Assembly (NCBI GenBank): GCA_947305035.1
Contig: CAMZCV010000018.1
Span: 1 to 10,944, forward strand
DNA length: 10,944 bases
Direction: 5' to 3'
From: an uncultured Coriobacteriales bacterium
GTDB lineage: Bacteria > Actinomycetota > Coriobacteriia > Coriobacteriales > Atopobiaceae
The notes beneath the pieces were generated by a model that had not been told where the DNA came from, did not search any database, and worked only from the letters and a program-made list of their open reading frames with translations. Each line of letters begins with the position of its first letter. Position 1 is the stretch's first letter. A program made the translations under genes and the position numbers. Of this stretch, positions 3,799 through 10,644 are shown piece after piece.

Positions 3799-4110
3799 AT
3801 GCGCACGGACAAAGCCGTTGACCGCAACTACACGCCTAACCCCGCGTGGGATGCGGGCGGCGCTGGCGTCATCCAGTTCGGCGAGTACACCAAGACCGTT
3901 CCCGACATGGCATCGAGCAGACCGCCGCGCGTGCTGGTTCGCAGCGTGACCGACCATGAGCTGTGGCGCTCCACGTGGAGGGGCAAGCGGTTCTCGGAGT
4001 ATTACGACTGTGTGGGACGCAGCTCGTGGTACCTCGGCAAGTTCCAGAGCGACGAAACCGCGATCGTGGCGTGGGAGACGCATCTAAGGCAGAGGGGAGT
4101 GATTAAGTGA
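3799..4110 (+). CDS. Hypothetical phage protein (103 residues)
   Basis: I do not recognise this gene. It begins immediately after the stop of the membrane microprotein and ends in a GTGA overlap with the helicase-methyltransferase gene. It is therefore translated as part of the early operon, without a strong ribosome site of its own. The protein is soluble and mixed in charge, with a basic, aromatic-rich second half. The segment LVRSVTDHELWRSTWRGKRF is followed by S-E-Y-Y-D-C-V-G-R-S-S-W-Y-L-G-K-F and ends in a helix (TAIVAWETHLRQR). It has one cysteine and no membrane segment. The W/R/Y-rich part could bind nucleic acid, but no motif proves this. Confidence 0.7.
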   Translation: MRTDKAVDRNYTPNPAWDAGGAGVIQFGEYTKTVPDMASSRPPRVLVRSVTDHELWRSTWRGKRFSEYYDCVGRSSWYLGKFQSDETAIVAWETHLRQRGVIK

Positions 4111-6347
4111 ACTACGGCAATTTCCTCGACGCAAAGCGAGCAATCGTGAAGCCGGTTGGATTCGAGCCGTCCGAAATCAACAATAAGCTGTATCCGTTCC
4201 AGCGCGATATCGTCTCGTGGGCATGCCGCAAAGGTAAGGCGTGCATCTTCGCCGACTGTGGCATGGGCAAGACGGCGATGCAGCTCGAATGGGCAGACCA
4301 AGTATGCAAGCACGTCGGCGGCGGCAAAGTGCTCATCGTGGCACCGCTGGCGGTATCGGCGCAGACCGTCCGCGAGGGGCGCAAGTTCGGCATCGCGGTC
4401 AATCGGTGCCGCTCGGCGCTCGAGCTCGATGACGGCATCAACATCACCAACTACGAGATGCTTCACGCATTCGAGGGCGTCACGTTCAATGCGGTGGTTT
4501 TGGACGAGAGCTCGATTCTCAAGAGCTATTCTGGCAAGATTCGCAACCAAATCATCGATATGTTCGAGAGTGTGCCGTTCAAGCTGGCATGCACGGCAAC
4601 GCCATCTCCAAATGACTATATGGAGTTAGGCAATCACGCCGAGTTCGTGTCAATCATGACGCGCACCGAGATGCTTGCGACGTTCTTCACGCACGACGGC
4701 GGCAACACCAGCAAATGGCGTCTCAAGGGGCATGCGGTCGATGTCTTCTGGGACTGGGTTAGCCAATGGGCGGTAACCGTCACGTCTCCAGCCGATTTGG
4801 GCTATGACGCGGGCGGATTCGACTTGCCAGACCTCAACATCCACCAAGTCATCGTTGAGTCGGATTCGCTCGTTGACGATTCGCGCCTGTTCGCGGTCGA
4901 AGCGATCACGCTGTCAGACCAACAGAAGGCACGCAGAACGACGGTTGAGGTAAAGGCTGACGCAATCGCGCAGAAGGTCAACTCCGACGATGGGCAATGG
5001 CTCATCTGGTGCGACCTCAACGCCGAGAGCGAGTATCTGGCCGACTCGATACCGGATGCCGTAGAGGTCCGTGGCTCCGACTCCGACGAGCACAAGGAAC
5101 AGTCGATGCTCGGTTTTGCAGACGGCACAATCCGCGTGCTTGTCACGAAGCCGTCAATCGCGGGATTCGGCATGAACTGGCAGAACTGCCATCAGATGGC
5201 GTTCTGCGGCTTGTCTCACAGCTACGAGCAGTTCTACCAAGCCGTGCGTCGCTGCTGGCGATACGGGCAGACGCAGCCCGTGACGGTTGACGTGGTCGTA
5301 AGCGACCAAGAGACGGCAATCGTCGCGAACGTCATCTCTAAGCGCGACGCATCCGACGAGATGAAGGAGCAGATGACAAGGAGAAGCATGAGGATTCGCA
5401 CGGACGATTCCATGACGGCGCGTGACTCGATGCCGTATATGACCGATGACGTGAGCGGTGATGGATGGGACTTGAAGCTCGGCGATTGCGTTGAGCGCAT
5501 CCGCGAGATTCCAGACGGCGCTGTTGGCTATACCATCTTCTCGCCGCCGTTCGCCAGTCTCTACACGTACAGCAACAGCGACCGCGACATGGGCAACTGC
5601 AAGACGGATGACGAGTTCGCGGAGCACTTCGCGTACCTCATCCCCGAGCTGTACCGCGTGACGGCACCTGGGCGGCTGCTCTCGTTCCATTGCATGAATC
5701 TCCCGACAACCAAGGAGCGGGACGGCTACATCGGCATCCGTGACTTTCGCGGTGACCTCATACGCGAGTTCCAGAAGGCTGGATTCATCTATCACAGCGA
5801 GGTTTGCATCTGGAAGGACCCCGTCACGGCAATGCAGCGCACAAAGGCGCTCGGGCTGCTCAACAAGCAGAAGAACAAGGACTCGTGCATGAGTCGGCAA
5901 GGCATCCCCGATTACCTCGTGACCATGCGTAAGCCAGGGGACAACGAGACGCCCGTGACGCACACTAACAAGGACTTTCCAATCCCCATGTGGCAGCTCT
6001 ATGCCTCGCCAGTGTGGATGGATGTCAACCCGTCTAGGACGCTCCAGTACAAGACGGCGCGAGAGAACGAAGACGAGCGCCACATCTGCCCGTTGCAGCT
6101 CGATGTAATCGAGCGCGGCATTGACTTGTGGAGCGCACCGAACGACCTAGTGCTTTCGCCGTTCGCTGGCATCGGCTCCGAGGGATACGTGGCCGTCACG
6201 AAGGGGCGCCGATTCGTCGGCATCGAGTTGAAGCCGTCCTACTTCAACGTTGCCGTAAACAACATGCGAGAAGCGGAGCGAATCGCGTCACAGCACACGC
6301 TGTTCGACTTCATGCGCGTTGACAACTGCACGGGGGCGAGCGCATGA
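4107..6347 (+). CDS. SNF2-like helicase fused to DNA methyltransferase
   Basis: A 746-residue two-domain protein. Residues ~25-425 are a superfamily 2 (SNF2-like) helicase/translocase. They include YPFQRDIVSWA (Q-like motif), Walker A C-G-M-G-K-T (51-56), VLDESS (motif II, 131-136) and ACTATP (motif III, 161-166). The second RecA fold has VLVTKPSIAGFGMNWQ (344-359) and QAVRRCWRYGQ (378-388, motif VI). Residues ~455-746 are a beta-type amino-methyltransferase. Its catalytic SPPF (479-482) follows GDCVERIREI; the AdoMet motif LSPFAGIGSEGYVA (683-696) and GIELKPSYFN (705-714) come near the end. SPPF is typical of N4-cytosine enzymes such as M.PvuII, though N6-adenine is possible. GTG at 4107 overlaps the previous TGA, with GAGGGGAG upstream. 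No nuclease domain is present. Phages often carry the two activities as neighbouring genes; here they are one frame with an internal start at 5388. Confidence 0.9.
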   Translation: MNYGNFLDAKRAIVKPVGFEPSEINNKLYPFQRDIVSWACRKGKACIFADCGMGKTAMQLEWADQVCKHVGGGKVLIVAPLAVSAQTVREGRKFGIAVNRCRSALELDDGINITNYEMLHAFEGVTFNAVVLDESSILKSYSGKIRNQIIDMFESVPFKLACTATPSPNDYMELGNHAEFVSIMTRTEMLATFFTHDGGNTSKWRLKGHAVDVFWDWVSQWAVTVTSPADLGYDAGGFDLPDLNIHQVIVESDSLVDDSRLFAVEAITLSDQQKARRTTVEVKADAIAQKVNSDDGQWLIWCDLNAESEYLADSIPDAVEVRGSDSDEHKEQSMLGFADGTIRVLVTKPSIAGFGMNWQNCHQMAFCGLSHSYEQFYQAVRRCWRYGQTQPVTVDVVVSDQETAIVANVISKRDASDEMKEQMTRRSMRIRTDDSMTARDSMPYMTDDVSGDGWDLKLGDCVERIREIPDGAVGYTIFSPPFASLYTYSNSDRDMGNCKTDDEFAEHFAYLIPELYRVTAPGRLLSFHCMNLPTTKERDGYIGIRDFRGDLIREFQKAGFIYHSEVCIWKDPVTAMQRTKALGLLNKQKNKDSCMSRQGIPDYLVTMRKPGDNETPVTHTNKDFPIPMWQLYASPVWMDVNPSRTLQYKTARENEDERHICPLQLDVIERGIDLWSAPNDLVLSPFAGIGSEGYVAVTKGRRFVGIELKPSYFNVAVNNMREAERIASQHTLFDFMRVDNCTGASA
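5378..5390 (+). promoter_or_regulatory. Internal ribosome site and in-frame ATG at domain boundary
   Basis: AAGGAG (5378-5383), four bases, then ATG (5388-5390), in frame with the helicase-methyltransferase at codon 428. It falls between helicase motif VI (ends ~388) and the first methyltransferase motif (~459). Initiation here would make a stand-alone methyltransferase of 319 residues. Whether it is used is not known. Confidence 0.5.
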
Positions 6348-6742
6348 CGTGCCACAGCTTCGAGGTCCCGTTCGTCCGTGGCAAGGGCAGGGTACGCTTT
6401 GCCCGCGCCACGGGGCGCACGTACACGCCAGACGCAACAGCGGAAGCGATGCAGCTCATCCGCCAGGAGTGGGGCGATAGCCCGTGTGCTCCATCTGGCG
6501 TGCCGGTGACCGTCCGCATATTGACCATGCGACCGATGCCAAAGTCACGACCGAAGAGGATCGTGGCCGAGCCGGATGTGTACAAGCCCGACGCAGACAA
6601 CATCGCCAAGCTCGTGCTCGATGCGCTCAACGGCATCGCGTGGTCTGACGATACGCAGGTCACTGGGCTTTATGTGTTCAAGTGCGACCGCATGCGCGAC
6701 CTCATCGAGCGCACGTGCGTGGAAGTGGAGTGGGAGGATTAG
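6344..6742 (+). CDS. rusA: RusA-family Holliday junction resolvase
   Basis: A 132-residue endodeoxyribonuclease of the RusA family, which cuts four-way DNA junctions made during phage recombination and replication so that branched DNA can be packaged. The signature is clear: RPMPKSRPKR (63-72) is followed by KPDADNIAKLVLDALNG (81-97) and AWSDDTQV (99-106). The acidic metal-binding set is D83, D85 and D102/D103, with K89 matching the conserved lysine of the family. Length agrees with E. coli RusA (about 120 residues). The ATG overlaps the TGA of the helicase-methyltransferase (ATGA), indicating coupled translation. It belongs with the Sak4-like ATPase and SSB further along as a recombination set. 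Confidence 0.92.
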   Translation: MTCHSFEVPFVRGKGRVRFARATGRTYTPDATAEAMQLIRQEWGDSPCAPSGVPVTVRILTMRPMPKSRPKRIVAEPDVYKPDADNIAKLVLDALNGIAWSDDTQVTGLYVFKCDRMRDLIERTCVEVEWED

Positions 6743-7267: not shown

Positions 7268-7584
7268 TGGGGCGCATCACGTACCCCGAGCCGCCGTCTC
7301 ACGTCGATGTCTGGTGGGTTGTTGTAGATGAGCCGGTTACGGCGATATCGACGGCATCTGGCGATGAGACGGCGTGCGTATGGGGCGTTCTGTACGGCAT
7401 GCGTGCCGACCGTGTAGCGACCAAGCACGACATGGGCGAAGTGACGATGACCTTGCTCAAGATAGCGCAGGATGCGTTTGTCGTACAGGAGCCGAGCATG
7501 AAGTGCTTCATGCGCGTCATGCGTGCAAACGGGCTCCACGGGCTTTACCGCAAGGCTGGCACGGATAAGACGTACAAGTTCTGA
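7264..7584 (+). CDS. Hypothetical phage protein (~106 residues)
   Basis: Not recognised. Two starts are possible: GTG at 7264, which overlaps the previous TGA, and ATG at 7267, which is directly after it in the same frame; AGAAGG lies a few bases upstream. The N-terminal half is beta-like (HVDVWWVVVDEPVTAI and TACVWGVLYG), and the second half is basic and helical (EVTMTLLKIAQDAF, MKCFMRVMRANGLHGLYRK). No membrane segment, no metal motif. It is followed after 19 bases by the Sak4-like gene. Confidence 0.7.
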   Translation: MMGRITYPEPPSHVDVWWVVVDEPVTAISTASGDETACVWGVLYGMRADRVATKHDMGEVTMTLLKIAQDAFVVQEPSMKCFMRVMRANGLHGLYRKAGTDKTYKF

Positions 7585-7603
7585 CAAAGATGGGAGTGGC
7601 AAC

Positions 7604-8230
7604 ATGGGAGTGCCTGTTCTGATTCTCGGCGAGTCTGGCACGGGCAAGAGCTACAGCTTGCGCAACTTCGACGCCAGCGAGATTGGCATCGTGAACGTGC
7701 TCGGCAAGCCGATGCCGTTCAAGAGCGGCCTCAAGTCAATCAACACGCGAGACATCCAGCGCGTGCGCAACATCATCAAGAAGGCGTCATCGAGGGCAAT
7801 CGTCATCGATGACTTCGGATACCTCATCACTGACATGTACATGCGTTACAGCTTTGGCGAAGAGCGCATGCGTGACCAGTTCGACGTCTACAAGCTCATC
7901 GGGCATGAGGTCTACGGTCTCATGAACGACATCTATGCGTTGCCAGAAGACAAGATCGTCTACCTCACGATGCACACCGATACGACGGTCGGAACAATCC
8001 AGCCGCTCACCATCGGCAAGCTGCTCAACGAGAAGGTGAAGCTCGTCGGCATGGTGACCGTCTGCCTGCTCGCCCGCGTGCAGGGCTCCAGCTACGAGTT
8101 CGTCACGAACGGGCTACCGCCAGCGAAGACGCCGCCTGGGATGTTCCCAGAGACCGTGCCGAACGACCTCGCGATGGTCGATTCCACGATGCGCGAGTTC
8201 TGGGGCATGAAGCAGCTCGGCGGCGAGTAG
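7604..8230 (+). CDS. RecA-fold phage ATPase, Sak4-like (AAA_24) putative annealase
   Basis: A 208-residue P-loop ATPase. Walker A is GESGTGKS (9-16) very near the N-terminus, and Walker B is AIVIDD (65-70). YLTMHTD at 120-126 supplies the usual polar motif after the next strand, and the C-terminal part carries basic-aromatic loops. The small single-domain layout with Walker A at the very start matches AAA_24/Sak4 proteins. Sak4 of phage HK620 is a remote RecA relative with single-strand annealing activity stimulated by its own phage SSB. The next gene here is an SSB-like protein, which fits that pairing. The ATG at 7604 is preceded by GGGAG; the frame opens earlier (7523) but inside the previous gene. 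No RecT/Erf/Redbeta gene is visible, so this is likely the phage annealase. Confidence 0.8.
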   Translation: MGVPVLILGESGTGKSYSLRNFDASEIGIVNVLGKPMPFKSGLKSINTRDIQRVRNIIKKASSRAIVIDDFGYLITDMYMRYSFGEERMRDQFDVYKLIGHEVYGLMNDIYALPEDKIVYLTMHTDTTVGTIQPLTIGKLLNEKVKLVGMVTVCLLARVQGSSYEFVTNGLPPAKTPPGMFPETVPNDLAMVDSTMREFWGMKQLGGE

Positions 8231-8260
8231 ACAACCAACAACGAGAGAAGGGACACAACA

Positions 8261-8827
8261 ATGCCTAACGTCAATTGGAGCACCGTCGAAGAGAGCGCGG
8301 GCGGCACGTTCCGCATGCCCGAGCCTGGCGGCTACATCTGCGTCATCACGGGCGTCAAGAGCGTGCCGGAAAAGCAGTACGTCGGCATCATGTGGGACAT
8401 CGCCGAGGGTGAGTTCAAGGGCTGCTACGAGTCCAGCCAGTACCCGCCGATGGACATCATGAGCTACAAGCCCAACGCGCTGCCGATGACCAAGCACAAG
8501 CTCCACGTGCTTGCGGATGACAACGCTGGCTTTCGCAGCTCCGCAGCATTCAACTCCGACAATTGGGACGCTTTCGTCGGCAAGCGCTTTGGAGCCGTTC
8601 TCCGCAAGCGCATCTACACCAAGAAGAACGGGCAGAGCGGAGAAGCCATCGAGATTGGCGCATGGAAGCGCTGCGACGAGATTCGCAGCGGCCAGTGGAA
8701 GCCGATGGCCCCGCGAGACCAGACCACGGGAGGCAACGGCGGCACCGCGCCGATTCCAACTCCTGCACAGGCACCGACCTACGACGCGGCAAAGGCCGAC
8801 GTCTACGACGAGGACATTCCGTTCTAA
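8261..8827 (+). CDS. SSB-like phage single-stranded DNA-binding protein
   Basis: A 188-residue protein. Residues ~18-140 are rich in beta segments (PGGYICVITGVKS, YVGIMWDI, FVGKRFGAVLRKRIYT, EIGAWKRC) and resemble the DUF669/DUF2815-like phage SSB group, predicted OB-fold proteins. Residues ~150-180 form a flexible G/P/T/A-rich tail, and the last residues are VYDEDIPF. An acidic stretch ending in D-I-P-F is the hallmark C-terminal tip of bacterial SSBs, used to recruit partner proteins. It should coat single-stranded DNA during replication and annealing and cooperate with the Sak4-like ATPase upstream. The start has a strong AGAAGGGA (8246-8253) at good spacing, suggesting high expression. 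The general role is fairly sure; the exact family name is less so. Confidence 0.8.
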   Translation: MPNVNWSTVEESAGGTFRMPEPGGYICVITGVKSVPEKQYVGIMWDIAEGEFKGCYESSQYPPMDIMSYKPNALPMTKHKLHVLADDNAGFRSSAAFNSDNWDAFVGKRFGAVLRKRIYTKKNGQSGEAIEIGAWKRCDEIRSGQWKPMAPRDQTTGGNGGTAPIPTPAQAPTYDAAKADVYDEDIPF

Positions 8828-8836
8828 CGACCGAGA

Positions 8837-8859
8837 CGGGGATGCCGAGTGCATCCCCG
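8837..8859 (+). other. Strong stem-loop between SSB-like and initiator genes
   Basis: CGGGGATGC (8837-8845) and GCATCCCCG (8851-8859) form a perfect 9-bp stem with a five-base loop (CGAGT), starting ten bases after the SSB stop. No T-run follows, so it is not a standard terminator. It may protect the SSB message from 3' degradation or tune the next gene, whose GAGGGGAG site begins 12 bases later. Confidence 0.6.
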
Positions 8860-8884
8860 CGTCATGAGACGAGGGGAGCACAGA

Positions 8885-9403
8885 GTGGCGCAGGATAGGT
8901 TCTACTACTGGAAGGGCTACCACGATGCCCTCGTGAGTCTCGGCTCATATGAGCTTGCTGGACGGTTCGTCATCGGCATGGGGCAGTACGTGTTCGAGGG
9001 CGTGGAGCCCGACTTCTCCGACTGTCCCATGCTCAAGTTCGCGTGGATCGCGATACGCGACGCCATCAAGGAGAGCGTGGAGATTGGCCGCAAGCAAGCC
9101 GAGCGAGGGCGCAAGGGCGGACGCTCAAGCAAGAAGCAATCAGAAAAAAGCACCGCTTTAAGCACCGCTTTAAGCGGTGCTTCAAGCACCGCTTCAAGCG
9201 TAGGGTACGGTAATGTAGAGTACCCTACCGCGCACGGCGGGCTTCGTGAAGACTCCGCCCGCCGCGCTTGGCCAAAGAGACGCGCCGACTGGACGGAAGA
9301 GCTTAAGGAACAGTGGCGCGAGTGGTGCAAGGCCGAGCAGCCTGACATGTGGCAAGCCGTCCAAGACGGCATGGTTCCGCAGCCGTGGGTGATGCAGCCG
9401 TGA
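8885..9403 (+). CDS. DUF6291-like protein, putative phage replication initiator
   Basis: A 172-residue protein. Residues 6-75 (FYYWKGYHDALVSLGSYELA, then GQYVFEGVEPDF, then FAWIAIRDAIKESVE) match the DUF6291 pattern found in phage replication regions. Residues 75-87 are basic (RGRKGGRSSKKQ); 88-105 form a low-complexity linker of STAL/STAS repeats; 127-172 form a Trp-rich C-terminal part (DWTEELKEQWREWCKA). It lies just before the DnaB-type helicase gene, where phages keep an initiator or helicase loader, and its linker DNA carries phased repeats (9148-9200) as in lambda O. The start is GTG at 8885, because GAGGGGAG (8871-8878) ends six bases before it; an ATG at 8849 lies inside the preceding hairpin. 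The domain match is fair; the initiator role is inferred from context. Confidence 0.65.
   Translation: MAQDRFYYWKGYHDALVSLGSYELAGRFVIGMGQYVFEGVEPDFSDCPMLKFAWIAIRDAIKESVEIGRKQAERGRKGGRSSKKQSEKSTALSTALSGASSTASSVGYGNVEYPTAHGGLREDSARRAWPKRRADWTEELKEQWREWCKAEQPDMWQAVQDGMVPQPWVMQP
9148..9228. repeat. Phased palindromic iterons plus inverted repeat: candidate replication origin
   Basis: Four copies of AAGC-NNN-GCTT lie at 9148-9158, 9160-9170, 9172-9182 and 9184-9194, at an exact 12-bp period, and a fifth partial copy starts at 9196. The centre is ACC in copies 1, 2 and 4 and GGT in copy 3, so copy 3 is inverted. Immediately after come GTAGGGTAC (9200-9208) and GTACCCTAC (9220-9228), a perfect 9-bp inverted repeat around an 11-base AT-richer spacer. 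A short A-rich stretch precedes the array. The repeats lie inside the putative initiator gene. Origin function is inference; a slippage-derived Ser/Thr/Ala/Leu linker is the simple alternative. Confidence 0.55.
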
Positions 9404-10644
9404 TCACATCGTACACAGCGCCATCCGCGCTGCGTGCGCTCGACAGGCTCAACATGCTCACCGGCACGCCGTTGCTCATGGTCGGCAACGAGCTAAGGCG
9501 CGGCGTCGGCGTCGAGGAAATGTGGCGCGACTTCGCCGTGCGACGCGGCATGACGCCGCAAGACGCGCACGCCGCATGGCTGTCATTCCCGCATGACGAT
9601 TGGCCAGACGTCATCGAGTCGTGGGCGATGGAAGACGGATGGAGTCCGAACGACGCGCGTCTGCCCGCATACGACCCGCAAGACGAGCAGAGCCCGTGGT
9701 CGCGTCTCGTTGCCACGACGGGCATCGACTACGTTGCGGAGCACATCGCTCATCCAGCGTTCGCCACGACTGGCATCGACAGGTTGGACCAGGCGCTCGG
9801 CGGCGGCATCGTCGGCGGCACGTACACGGTGATAGGCGGCGAGGGCGGCGTGGGCAAGACCGCGCTCGCGACCATAGCCGCCTACCACATCGCGTGCAGC
9901 GGCAAGTGGCGTGCGCTCGTGTTCTCTGCGGAGATAACGAGAAAGCAGATGTACGACCGACTTCTTGCCGTCCACACGCGTGCGCATCCAGAGCGGTTTC
10001 GCCACGAGGATTTGGTCTGGTGGAGCAAGGTCGAAGCGGAGAGCGACACGCGACTCGGCACGGAAGAGACGATGCGACTGTGGATGGCAGACGAGTCGGA
10101 GCTGAACGCGGCAAAGGTGCAGTACCTGCTCGGGGACGGCGCCGATGACCCAGTGATAGCGGCGTGGCGTGACATGGAGTCCGTGCTCGGCGGAAAGCTC
10201 GTCGTGGTTGACGAGGGCGTGACGTGCGACCGCATATGCGAGATCGTGCGCGAACTACGCAAAGCAAACGAGCCGGTTGTGCCAATCATCGACCACATGC
10301 ATGCGATAGCGCCGCCAGAGGGCGTGCCATCCGACAAGGAATATGAGTCGATAACGGCGATATCGCACCGTCTGCGTGACCTGGCGAAAGAGTGCCGATG
10401 CCCGATGCTCGTGCTTTCGGAGCTTAGGAACATCAACAAGAGCGAGCGAGACGAGCCGAGTCTCTCGTGGTTCCGTGGCAGCGGTCACGTCGGCTACGAC
10501 GCTGGGACGGCGATTGTGCTCATGCGCGGCGAGGATGTGCCGGAGGGCAGGGCGGTAAAGGCGCACGTATTGAAGAACAGACGCGGCGAGAGTGGCGCGG
10601 TCCTAGACCTCGTCTTCTCTGGCGCCGCACAGACCATCAAATGA
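9400..10644 (+). CDS. DnaB-type replicative helicase
   Basis: A 414-residue RecA-fold protein with a DnaB-like C-terminal motor. Residues 1-120 are a phage-specific N-terminal part (TPQDAHAAWLSFPHDDWPDV). A typical DnaB entry, FATTGIDRLDQALGGGI (121-137), leads to Walker A GGEGGVGKTA (146-155). The catalytic Glu is E178 in SAEIT, and Walker B is VVPIIDHMHAI (293-303), matching the IDYLQL segment of DnaB. The polar/arginine region is LSELRNINKSERDEPSLSWF with RGSGHVGYDAGTAIVLMR (339-376), followed by KNRRGESGA (392-400). It unwinds DNA at the phage fork. GTG at 9400 overlaps the TGA of the initiator gene (GTGA); GTG at 9385 is an alternative. A separate helicase loader is not seen. Confidence 0.9.
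   Translation: MITSYTAPSALRALDRLNMLTGTPLLMVGNELRRGVGVEEMWRDFAVRRGMTPQDAHAAWLSFPHDDWPDVIESWAMEDGWSPNDARLPAYDPQDEQSPWSRLVATTGIDYVAEHIAHPAFATTGIDRLDQALGGGIVGGTYTVIGGEGGVGKTALATIAAYHIACSGKWRALVFSAEITRKQMYDRLLAVHTRAHPERFRHEDLVWWSKVEAESDTRLGTEETMRLWMADESELNAAKVQYLLGDGADDPVIAAWRDMESVLGGKLVVVDEGVTCDRICEIVRELRKANEPVVPIIDHMHAIAPPEGVPSDKEYESITAISHRLRDLAKECRCPMLVLSELRNINKSERDEPSLSWFRGSGHVGYDAGTAIVLMRGEDVPEGRAVKAHVLKNRRGESGAVLDLVFSGAAQTIK

Follow-up and report, generated by a model that had tools for sequence, protein, structure and literature searches.

Gene content of the window and the DUF6291-family protein

The DNA analyzed here, referred to as the window, is the full 10,944 bases of contig C18 from a draft genome. 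Its phage-type genes encode an endolysin-like protein, an integrase, an HTH repressor, a helicase-methyltransferase fusion, RusA, Sak4, a phrog_18107 protein, a DUF6291 protein, and a DnaB-type helicase; no tRNA gene was found in the window. The replication and recombination genes of the locus, with the parts of the DUF6291-family gene that concern us, are as follows.

6344..6742, + strand: RusA Holliday junction resolvase (PF05866, 72.6 bits)
7523..8230, + strand: Sak4-like single-strand annealing ATPase (phrog_2872, E = 9e-54)
8261..8827, + strand: phrog_18107 gene (E = 1.3e-6), function unassigned, upstream of the DUF6291 gene
8885..9403, + strand: DUF6291-family gene, which probably encodes a replication initiator (replisome organizer) of 172 amino acids; GTG start at 8885, stop codon at 9401-9403
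9107..9136, + strand: basic segment GRKGGRSSKK, residues 75-84, containing the linker-proximal motif that is best conserved in the family
9128..9283, + strand: predicted disordered linker (residues 82-133; AlphaFold2 pLDDT below 50), which bears the repeats
9400..10644, + strand: DnaB-type replicative helicase gene

The initial annotation had placed a DnaB helicase beside the repeat-bearing gene, and domain searches bear this out: the ORF, scanned from position 9349, matches DnaB_C (105 bits) and phrog_19, and its GTG start, as read from the sequence, overlaps the stop codon of the putative initiator gene. The phrog_18107 gene at 8261 to 8827 encodes a small protein that may have a role in single-stranded DNA binding. 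Gene order is near that of the window in L012, the nearest relative with DNA, where a RusA-like ORF (recognized by eye), a weak phrog_18107 match (E = 6e-5, two places upstream of the initiator), a primase, a DUF6291 gene, and a DnaB gene follow one another. Ten downstream genes of relatives, picked from 52 listed mostly by their Walker A motif, were also scanned; six encode DnaB_C and four an IstB/DnaC-like protein. Elsewhere in the window, the ORF at 4107-6347 encodes both a DEAD-type helicase (phrog_16, Helicase_C) and an N6/N4 DNA methyltransferase in one fused protein. At 69-2388, an endolysin-like gene (CHAP, PG_binding) adjoins the integrase. This adjacency would fit a phage genome joined at its attachment site better than an integrated prophage.

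The description of the gene at 8885 to 9403 as DUF6291-like stands at the level of the family. The L012 homologue scores 51.7 bits against Pfam DUF6291 (PF19808), 7 of 10 relatives scanned exceed the Pfam cutoff, and the domain is carried by 8 of 10 proteins returned by a protein search, one of the 10 being the window's own. The window protein, in contrast, falls under the cutoff of 27.2 bits (21.4 bits, E = 2.9e-4); it also matches phrog_15768 (E = 7e-9). Homologues begin with MAQDRFYFW or MAADRFYFW, and GAGGGGAG lies ahead of the GTG start, at 8871-8878. When the N-domain was compared with viral structures, the three best matches were all named DUF6291, yet with E values of 0.011 and higher; solved structures gave no convincing fold match.

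The AlphaFold2 model of the window protein contains helices at residues 5-18, 22-38, and 48-77, and the repeats described below encode residues 88-104, within the low-confidence stretch. The model of the L056 homologue displays this layout more clearly, with N- and C-domain blocks at pLDDT 85 to 98, a linker at about 50, and an array (approximately codons 75 to 115) that falls wholly within the linker. In the basic segment, residues G75, G78, G79, and R80 are nearly invariant (at least 90%) across 17 sequences. In two relatives, L034 and L207, a DUF6291-type N-domain is joined to Phg_2220_C, a domain of phage proteins whose various names include replication initiation protein and replisome organizer. 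In a further relative (L042:1453-1914), an ORF with a DUF6291-type N-domain lies directly 5' of a second, full DUF6291 gene; the stretch after its N-domain resembles an HNH nuclease motif.

A repeat array in the linker-coding DNA

The linker-coding part of the gene holds a compact array of repeats, followed by an AT-richer element and an inverted repeat.

9148..9158, + strand: iteron unit 1, AAGCACCGCTT, exact 11-bp unit AAGC-ACC-GCTT
9160..9170, + strand: iteron unit 2, AAGCACCGCTT, exact 11-bp unit
9172..9182, - strand: iteron unit 3, inverted, AAGCGGTGCTT on the + strand, AAGC-GGT-GCTT, exact reverse complement
9184..9194, + strand: iteron unit 4, AAGCACCGCTT, exact 11-bp unit
9200..9217, + strand: AT-richer element after the array, GTAGGGTACGGTAATGTA; L012 has the identical base at 17 of the 18 corresponding positions
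9200..9228 (arms 9200-9208 and 9220-9228), no strand: perfect 9-bp inverted repeat, GTAGGGTAC / GTACCCTAC, with an 11-nt spacer

The four AAGC-NNN-GCTT units at a 12-bp period, one of them inverted, had been reported in the initial annotation and are confirmed exactly at 9148 to 9194. Further copies of the unit occur at six places in the window, all with two mismatches, and the tandem pattern was found nowhere else in the host assembly when up to one mismatch was allowed. Identical 11-mers (on either strand) fill four of four successive 12-bp slots, compared with at most two in 60 dinucleotide shuffles. In a stricter control, the peptide stayed fixed and its codons were redrawn from the usage of the window. 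Across 20,000 such recodings, none reached the observed identity at lag 12 (30 of 39 positions; recoding mean 18.4, standard deviation 2.8), the number of reverse-complementary 9-mers (18; mean 0.07), or the number of paired positions between unit arms (16 of 20; mean 6.25). Common codons would have sufficed for this peptide, yet the array uses rare ones, among them TTA, which accounts for 2 of 172 Leu codons across the other genes of the window. All units share one reading frame, 12 bp being four codons, and out-of-frame repeat pairs were not significant in this gene (4 versus 2.3 expected, P = 0.26). One part of the original description, exact helical phasing, is not borne out: 12 bp corresponds to 1.14 turns of B-DNA, and the array is therefore regular rather than exactly helically phased.

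The perfect 9-bp inverted repeat is present at 9200-9228 as annotated, but its complete form is not kept in L012. Perfect 9-bp inverted repeats with spacers of 3 to 20 occur on average 1.6 times per shuffled window (largest count, 8), and the window has further ones away from the array, starting at 1065, 1113, 7195, and 8837, which makes the inverted repeat alone less remarkable. The one at 8837-8859 lies just 5' of the DUF6291 gene, has a 5-nt loop, and is without a T run. GC content is 0.53 in both the array and positions 9195-9230, compared with 0.61 for the gene; the corresponding means over 47 family genes are 0.40 for the array and 0.46 for the next 45 bp, with 0.53 and 0.57 for the first and last 150 bases. 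By predicted DNA stability, only four 100-bp stretches of the window are less stable than 9127-9226. At finer scale no obvious unwinding element was seen, the array region not being among the eight least stable 40- or 60-bp stretches of the window. Nor is a GC-skew switch, proposed earlier as a check, visible near 9.2 kb in a contig that is too short to decide the matter.

Repeat DNA across the DUF6291 family

To compare the array with those of relatives, DNA was drawn from genomes and viral contigs. The L012 unit is (A)GC-ACC-GCT with one flip of the center to GGT, and the L013 and L017 unit is (A)GC-TCT-GCT with a flip to AGA; other centers are AGT and TCC in both of these and TCA in L013. 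The flips swap Thr with Gly (ACC/GGT) or Ser with Arg (TCT/AGA). Such a change is odd for a peptide and, on comparison of the sequences, exact for DNA read from the opposite strand. More distant arrays use other words and often more than one frame: L056 has 10 copies of AAGCAAACC at an 11-bp step, spread over three frames; L057 has 11 copies of AACAAACCG at alternating 10 and 11 bp in two frames; L032 has eight copies of AACGCAAGC in three frames; and L034 has 13 copies of TAAGCAAAC, 12 of which share one frame at 12-bp steps. L034 (12 units) is among some kin with long, near-exact arrays. Overall, the arrays of relatives are spaced at 10 to 12 bp. The initial annotation had looked to relatives with unrelated linkers lacking phased repeats as evidence against its proposal; what we found instead are relatives with unrelated linker peptides, most of them nonetheless bearing phased repeats.

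Silent positions allow DNA and peptide conservation to be told apart. At identical amino acids, the codon itself was unchanged at 270 of 303 array positions and at 1,505 of 2,466 positions outside arrays, over 18 nonredundant pairs of relatives, and the share was higher in the array in all 18. Thirty of 119 pairs were usable, of which 12 that repeated the same genomes were dropped to give the 18; the array share was higher in all 30. The 13 pairs that share no member agree without exception (241 of 264 in arrays versus 1,124 of 1,784 outside). This conservation holds between relatives at 52 to 66% identity.

We then asked how general such repeats are. ORFs with a DUF6291-like N-domain were collected with our own profiles (E < 1e-3), and 87 were thinned at 85% identity to 57, a set that still includes some kin (L002 and L003, 80%). 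ORFs were called mechanically from the first ATG, GTG, or TTG after a stop, and several (L027, L044, and L045, among others) probably have noncoding 5' extensions. Repeated 8-mers were scored against within-gene permutations of synonymous codons. At P < 0.05, 33 of 57 DUF6291 genes had significant out-of-frame repeats, compared with 8 of 56 neighboring genes. For in-frame repeats the counts were 40 of 57 and 20 of 56, a share that was raised among neighbors as well. Inverted repeats were significant at the same threshold in 14 of 57 and 7 of 56, respectively, far weaker than the direct signal at helical lags. Among lags not divisible by three, large excesses were found at 10 (45 versus 3.4 expected), 11 (92 versus 7.0), 20 (29 versus 2.0), 22 (63 versus 3.6), 23 (47 versus 2.3), 44 (30 versus 1.8), and 46 (20 versus 3.0), with small excesses at several others, such as 8, 17, 29, 32, 34, and 35, and no repeats at all at lags 13, 25, and 37 in the 57 genes. 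Among multiples of three, lags 12, 24, 33, and 36 were raised, as were 15, 18, 27, 30, and 42.

Lags 10 to 12 were jointly significant in 39 of 57 DUF6291 genes and 1 of 56 neighbors. With fresh permutations and a larger control of 300 neighboring genes drawn from 674 ORFs, lags 10 to 12 were significant in 38 of 57 DUF6291 genes and 11 of 300 controls; the corresponding counts for helical lags out of frame were 31 of 57 and 9 of 300. A hold-out set of 20 genes was obtained from 30 new DUF6291-like ORFs by removing kin at 70% identity or more. In it, lags 10 to 12 were significant in 9 of 20 genes and out-of-frame helical lags in 12 of 20; the latter list of lags was picked after the first set had been seen, which makes the hold-out its only blind test. 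A significant signal at lags 10 to 12 was absent from 19 of 57 genes and from 11 of 20 in the hold-out, some of which are short ORFs with the N-domain only. A candidate core word for the family, AAGCA, was rejected when it failed to replicate in the hold-out (4 genes versus 3.15 expected). The signal itself extends beyond the family: among 102 replisome organizers without the DUF6291 N-domain, which share kinds of C-terminal motif with the DUF6291 set, lags 10 to 12 were significant in 52 and out-of-frame helical lags in 51. Since about half of these organizers show it, overprinted arrays may be general in such phage genes.

A second DNA periodicity, of 6 bp, was observed in DUF6291 genes at lags 18, 24, and 30 (lag 18, 90 versus 29.3 expected in the first set and 92 versus 30.9 in the hold-out). 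By eye, it lies in coding runs of the NVNVN or KEKEK kind after the iterons and could be an unwinding element; these low-complexity repeats (NVNV, KEKE) feed into lags 12, 18, and 24.

Taken together, the unrelated linkers with repeats, the codon conservation, and the agreement of the hold-out indicate that it is the DNA, and not the peptide, that is kept. The prediction of the initial annotation held: the repeat DNA, silent positions included, is kept better than the linker peptide, as seen in codon identity, family-wide lags, and the hold-out. The linker peptide would in turn be a by-product of the DNA repeat, as that annotation proposed. On these sequence comparisons, selection has maintained the DNA repeats and not the stretch of linker that they encode.

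The nearest other protein (P0002) is 83% identical to that of the window (P0001). The two are identical through P0001 position 78 (window residue 71) and differ at 5 positions across the last 67 residues. Between these parts, most of the linker has been exchanged in one piece (residues 79-111 in P0001 numbering and 72-104 in that of the window), with GGR kept and, by eye, a four-residue period that persists. Because the linker differs and the N-terminal part is identical, the N-domain alone may not read the sequence of the unit. The reader may be the basic KGGR segment, which changes with the linker, or something else.

A candidate intragenic origin and its relation to known systems

We consider it likely that the array serves the phage as a replication origin of the intragenic iteron type. 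The initial annotation had suggested a phage origin, and selection at the DNA level, spacing, and gene context lend support to this reading; from them we infer origin activity itself. In the mechanism that we propose, the DUF6291 protein, through its N-domain, the adjoining basic KGGR segment, or both, would bind the 11-bp units in the DNA of its own linker. Several copies would sit side by side, one unit per roughly one helical turn, and the resulting nucleoprotein complex would open the AT-richer stretch beside the array. The single strands could then pass to the DnaB-type helicase, whose gene comes next and overlaps the DUF6291 gene.

The same DNA evidence would suit any multisite binder, and autoregulation is common among initiators. 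The array could accordingly serve as an operator, at which the DUF6291 protein or a regulator of host or phage represses or times expression of the operon, and not be the origin. We regard this as unlikely, given that the array lies about 260 bp inside the gene with no sigma-70-like promoter found in 8200-9500, that every further copy of the unit in the window has at least two mismatches, and that the layout recurs in 52 of 102 organizers whose N-domain is a different one; moreover, the characterized cases cited below (TP901-1/Tuc2009 and SPP1) are origins. Alternatively, hairpins in the mRNA or a DNA strand, formed by pairing of unit 3 with units 2 and 4 and by the 9-bp inverted repeat, could control helicase translation or mRNA stability. 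Positions 9140-9235 do fold strongly as RNA (-42.1 kcal/mol, z = -6.4), as do to a lesser degree the L012 (z = -3.0) and L013 (z = -2.8) counterparts and the one-way array of L057 (z = -4.6). The other four of five one-way arrays fold without such structure (L022, whose array was included in part, +2.3; L034, -0.6; L056, -0.1; L032, +0.3), no Rfam match was found, and inverted repeats beat recoding in only the 14 of 57 genes noted above, against 7 of 56 neighbors. Hairpin control is, on this evidence, distinctly improbable.

Two further readings would deprive the repeats of a function as DNA. Recent, functionless tandem duplication by slippage would account for the exact tandem copies in the window and the long near-exact arrays of kin such as L034; inverted units, alternation of 10 and 11 bp, and higher silent conservation between relatives at 52 to 66% identity are not readily produced in this way, and we give slippage very little chance. 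A flexible Ser/Thr/Ala linker grown by in-frame duplication, with the DNA repeat as its by-product, would fit the single frame of the units in the window and its nearest kin, the nonsignificant out-of-frame pairs (4 versus 2.3), and the predicted disorder. It is largely contradicted by the recodings, none of 20,000 of which reproduces the array, by the rare codons, by centers that flip exactly to the reverse complement (Thr/Gly, Ser/Arg), and by relatives that set one DNA word in two or three frames with silent positions conserved; that the array is a protein feature is scarcely credible.

If the array is an origin, Pfam's DUF6291, a family of "unknown function," would gain a testable role as a replication initiator. 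Phage origins would be readable from sequence as helically spaced, frame-crossing repeats in the linker of a replication gene, and the repetitive linkers of many phage replisome organizers would be explained as overprinted origins. A bolder reading, which we put forward as doubtful speculation, is that DUF6291 proteins make up a large, unrecognized group of phage initiators in which the origin is written over the disordered linker, with one site per turn of DNA. The 12-bp, orientation-indifferent, near-palindromic unit in the lineage of the window would then imply sites along locally underwound DNA, and the KGGR segment and array would be swapped as one specificity cassette between near-identical initiators, as in the window protein and P0002. 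Were this so, phages could switch origin identity at a stroke.

The open-licence literature that was searched, in the portions available, contains no description of DUF6291 repeat arrays. Precedents exist for each step of the proposed mechanism in lambda, TP901-1/Tuc2009, and SPP1, and on these the array is read as a set of DUF6291 binding sites and an origin. Lambda iterons are described as 19-bp sites that bind O dimers, with a neighboring A+T-rich region that opens, and plasmid iterons as generally phased with the helix (PMC5043065). The lambda genome (NC_001416, L214), in which four ori iterons are annotated in O, served as a positive control for our lag test, which detected lags of 20, 23, and 44 (P = 0.01). 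The O/ori-like layout claimed in the initial annotation holds insofar as repeated sites lie inside a putative initiator gene beside a replication gene. For the protein, no link to lambda O was found, the sole Pfam match of the window protein at E <= 0.01 being DUF6291. The two also differ in spacing, unit starts being 20 to 24 bp apart in lambda and 12 bp apart in the window, and in the next gene, which is lambda P in one and the DnaB-type helicase in the other.

In the lactococcal P335 phages TP901-1 and Tuc2009, initiators are reported to bind direct repeats in their own rep genes, and these repeats are the origin (PMC8965321). One likeness to the window is the location of the repeats inside the putative initiator gene. 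The surroundings offer another: TP901-1 has ssb immediately ahead of rep and rus as the second gene past it, and the window has the phrog_18107 gene immediately ahead of the DUF6291 gene and RusA further upstream. TP901-1 Rep contains DnaB_2 and HTH_36 (the latter just under the cutoff), neither of which occurs in the window protein, and hhalign of a Rep profile against the DUF6291 alignment gave no signal (probability 0.2). TP901-1 rep, a proven case, was itself not significant in the lag test (lags 15 and 23, P = 0.14). SPP1 provides a further likeness, by description: oriL is reported to lie within gene 38, which encodes the origin-binding protein, with direct repeats and an AT-rich DNA unwinding element (DUE) (PMC6316719).

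Iterons of plasmid origins as a rule lie outside coding sequence, and the window differs from them in that its iterons are overprinted on a coding sequence; RepA_N plasmids, whose origins lie inside the rep gene, offer a parallel. With intragenic iteron origins, the window shares regular repeats in a putative initiator gene, a neighboring gene for a helicase or loader, and repeats selected as DNA rather than as peptide. The best explanation is thus an origin of a known, intragenic iteron kind, realized here with a 12-bp, invertible, near-palindromic unit in the DUF6291 family.
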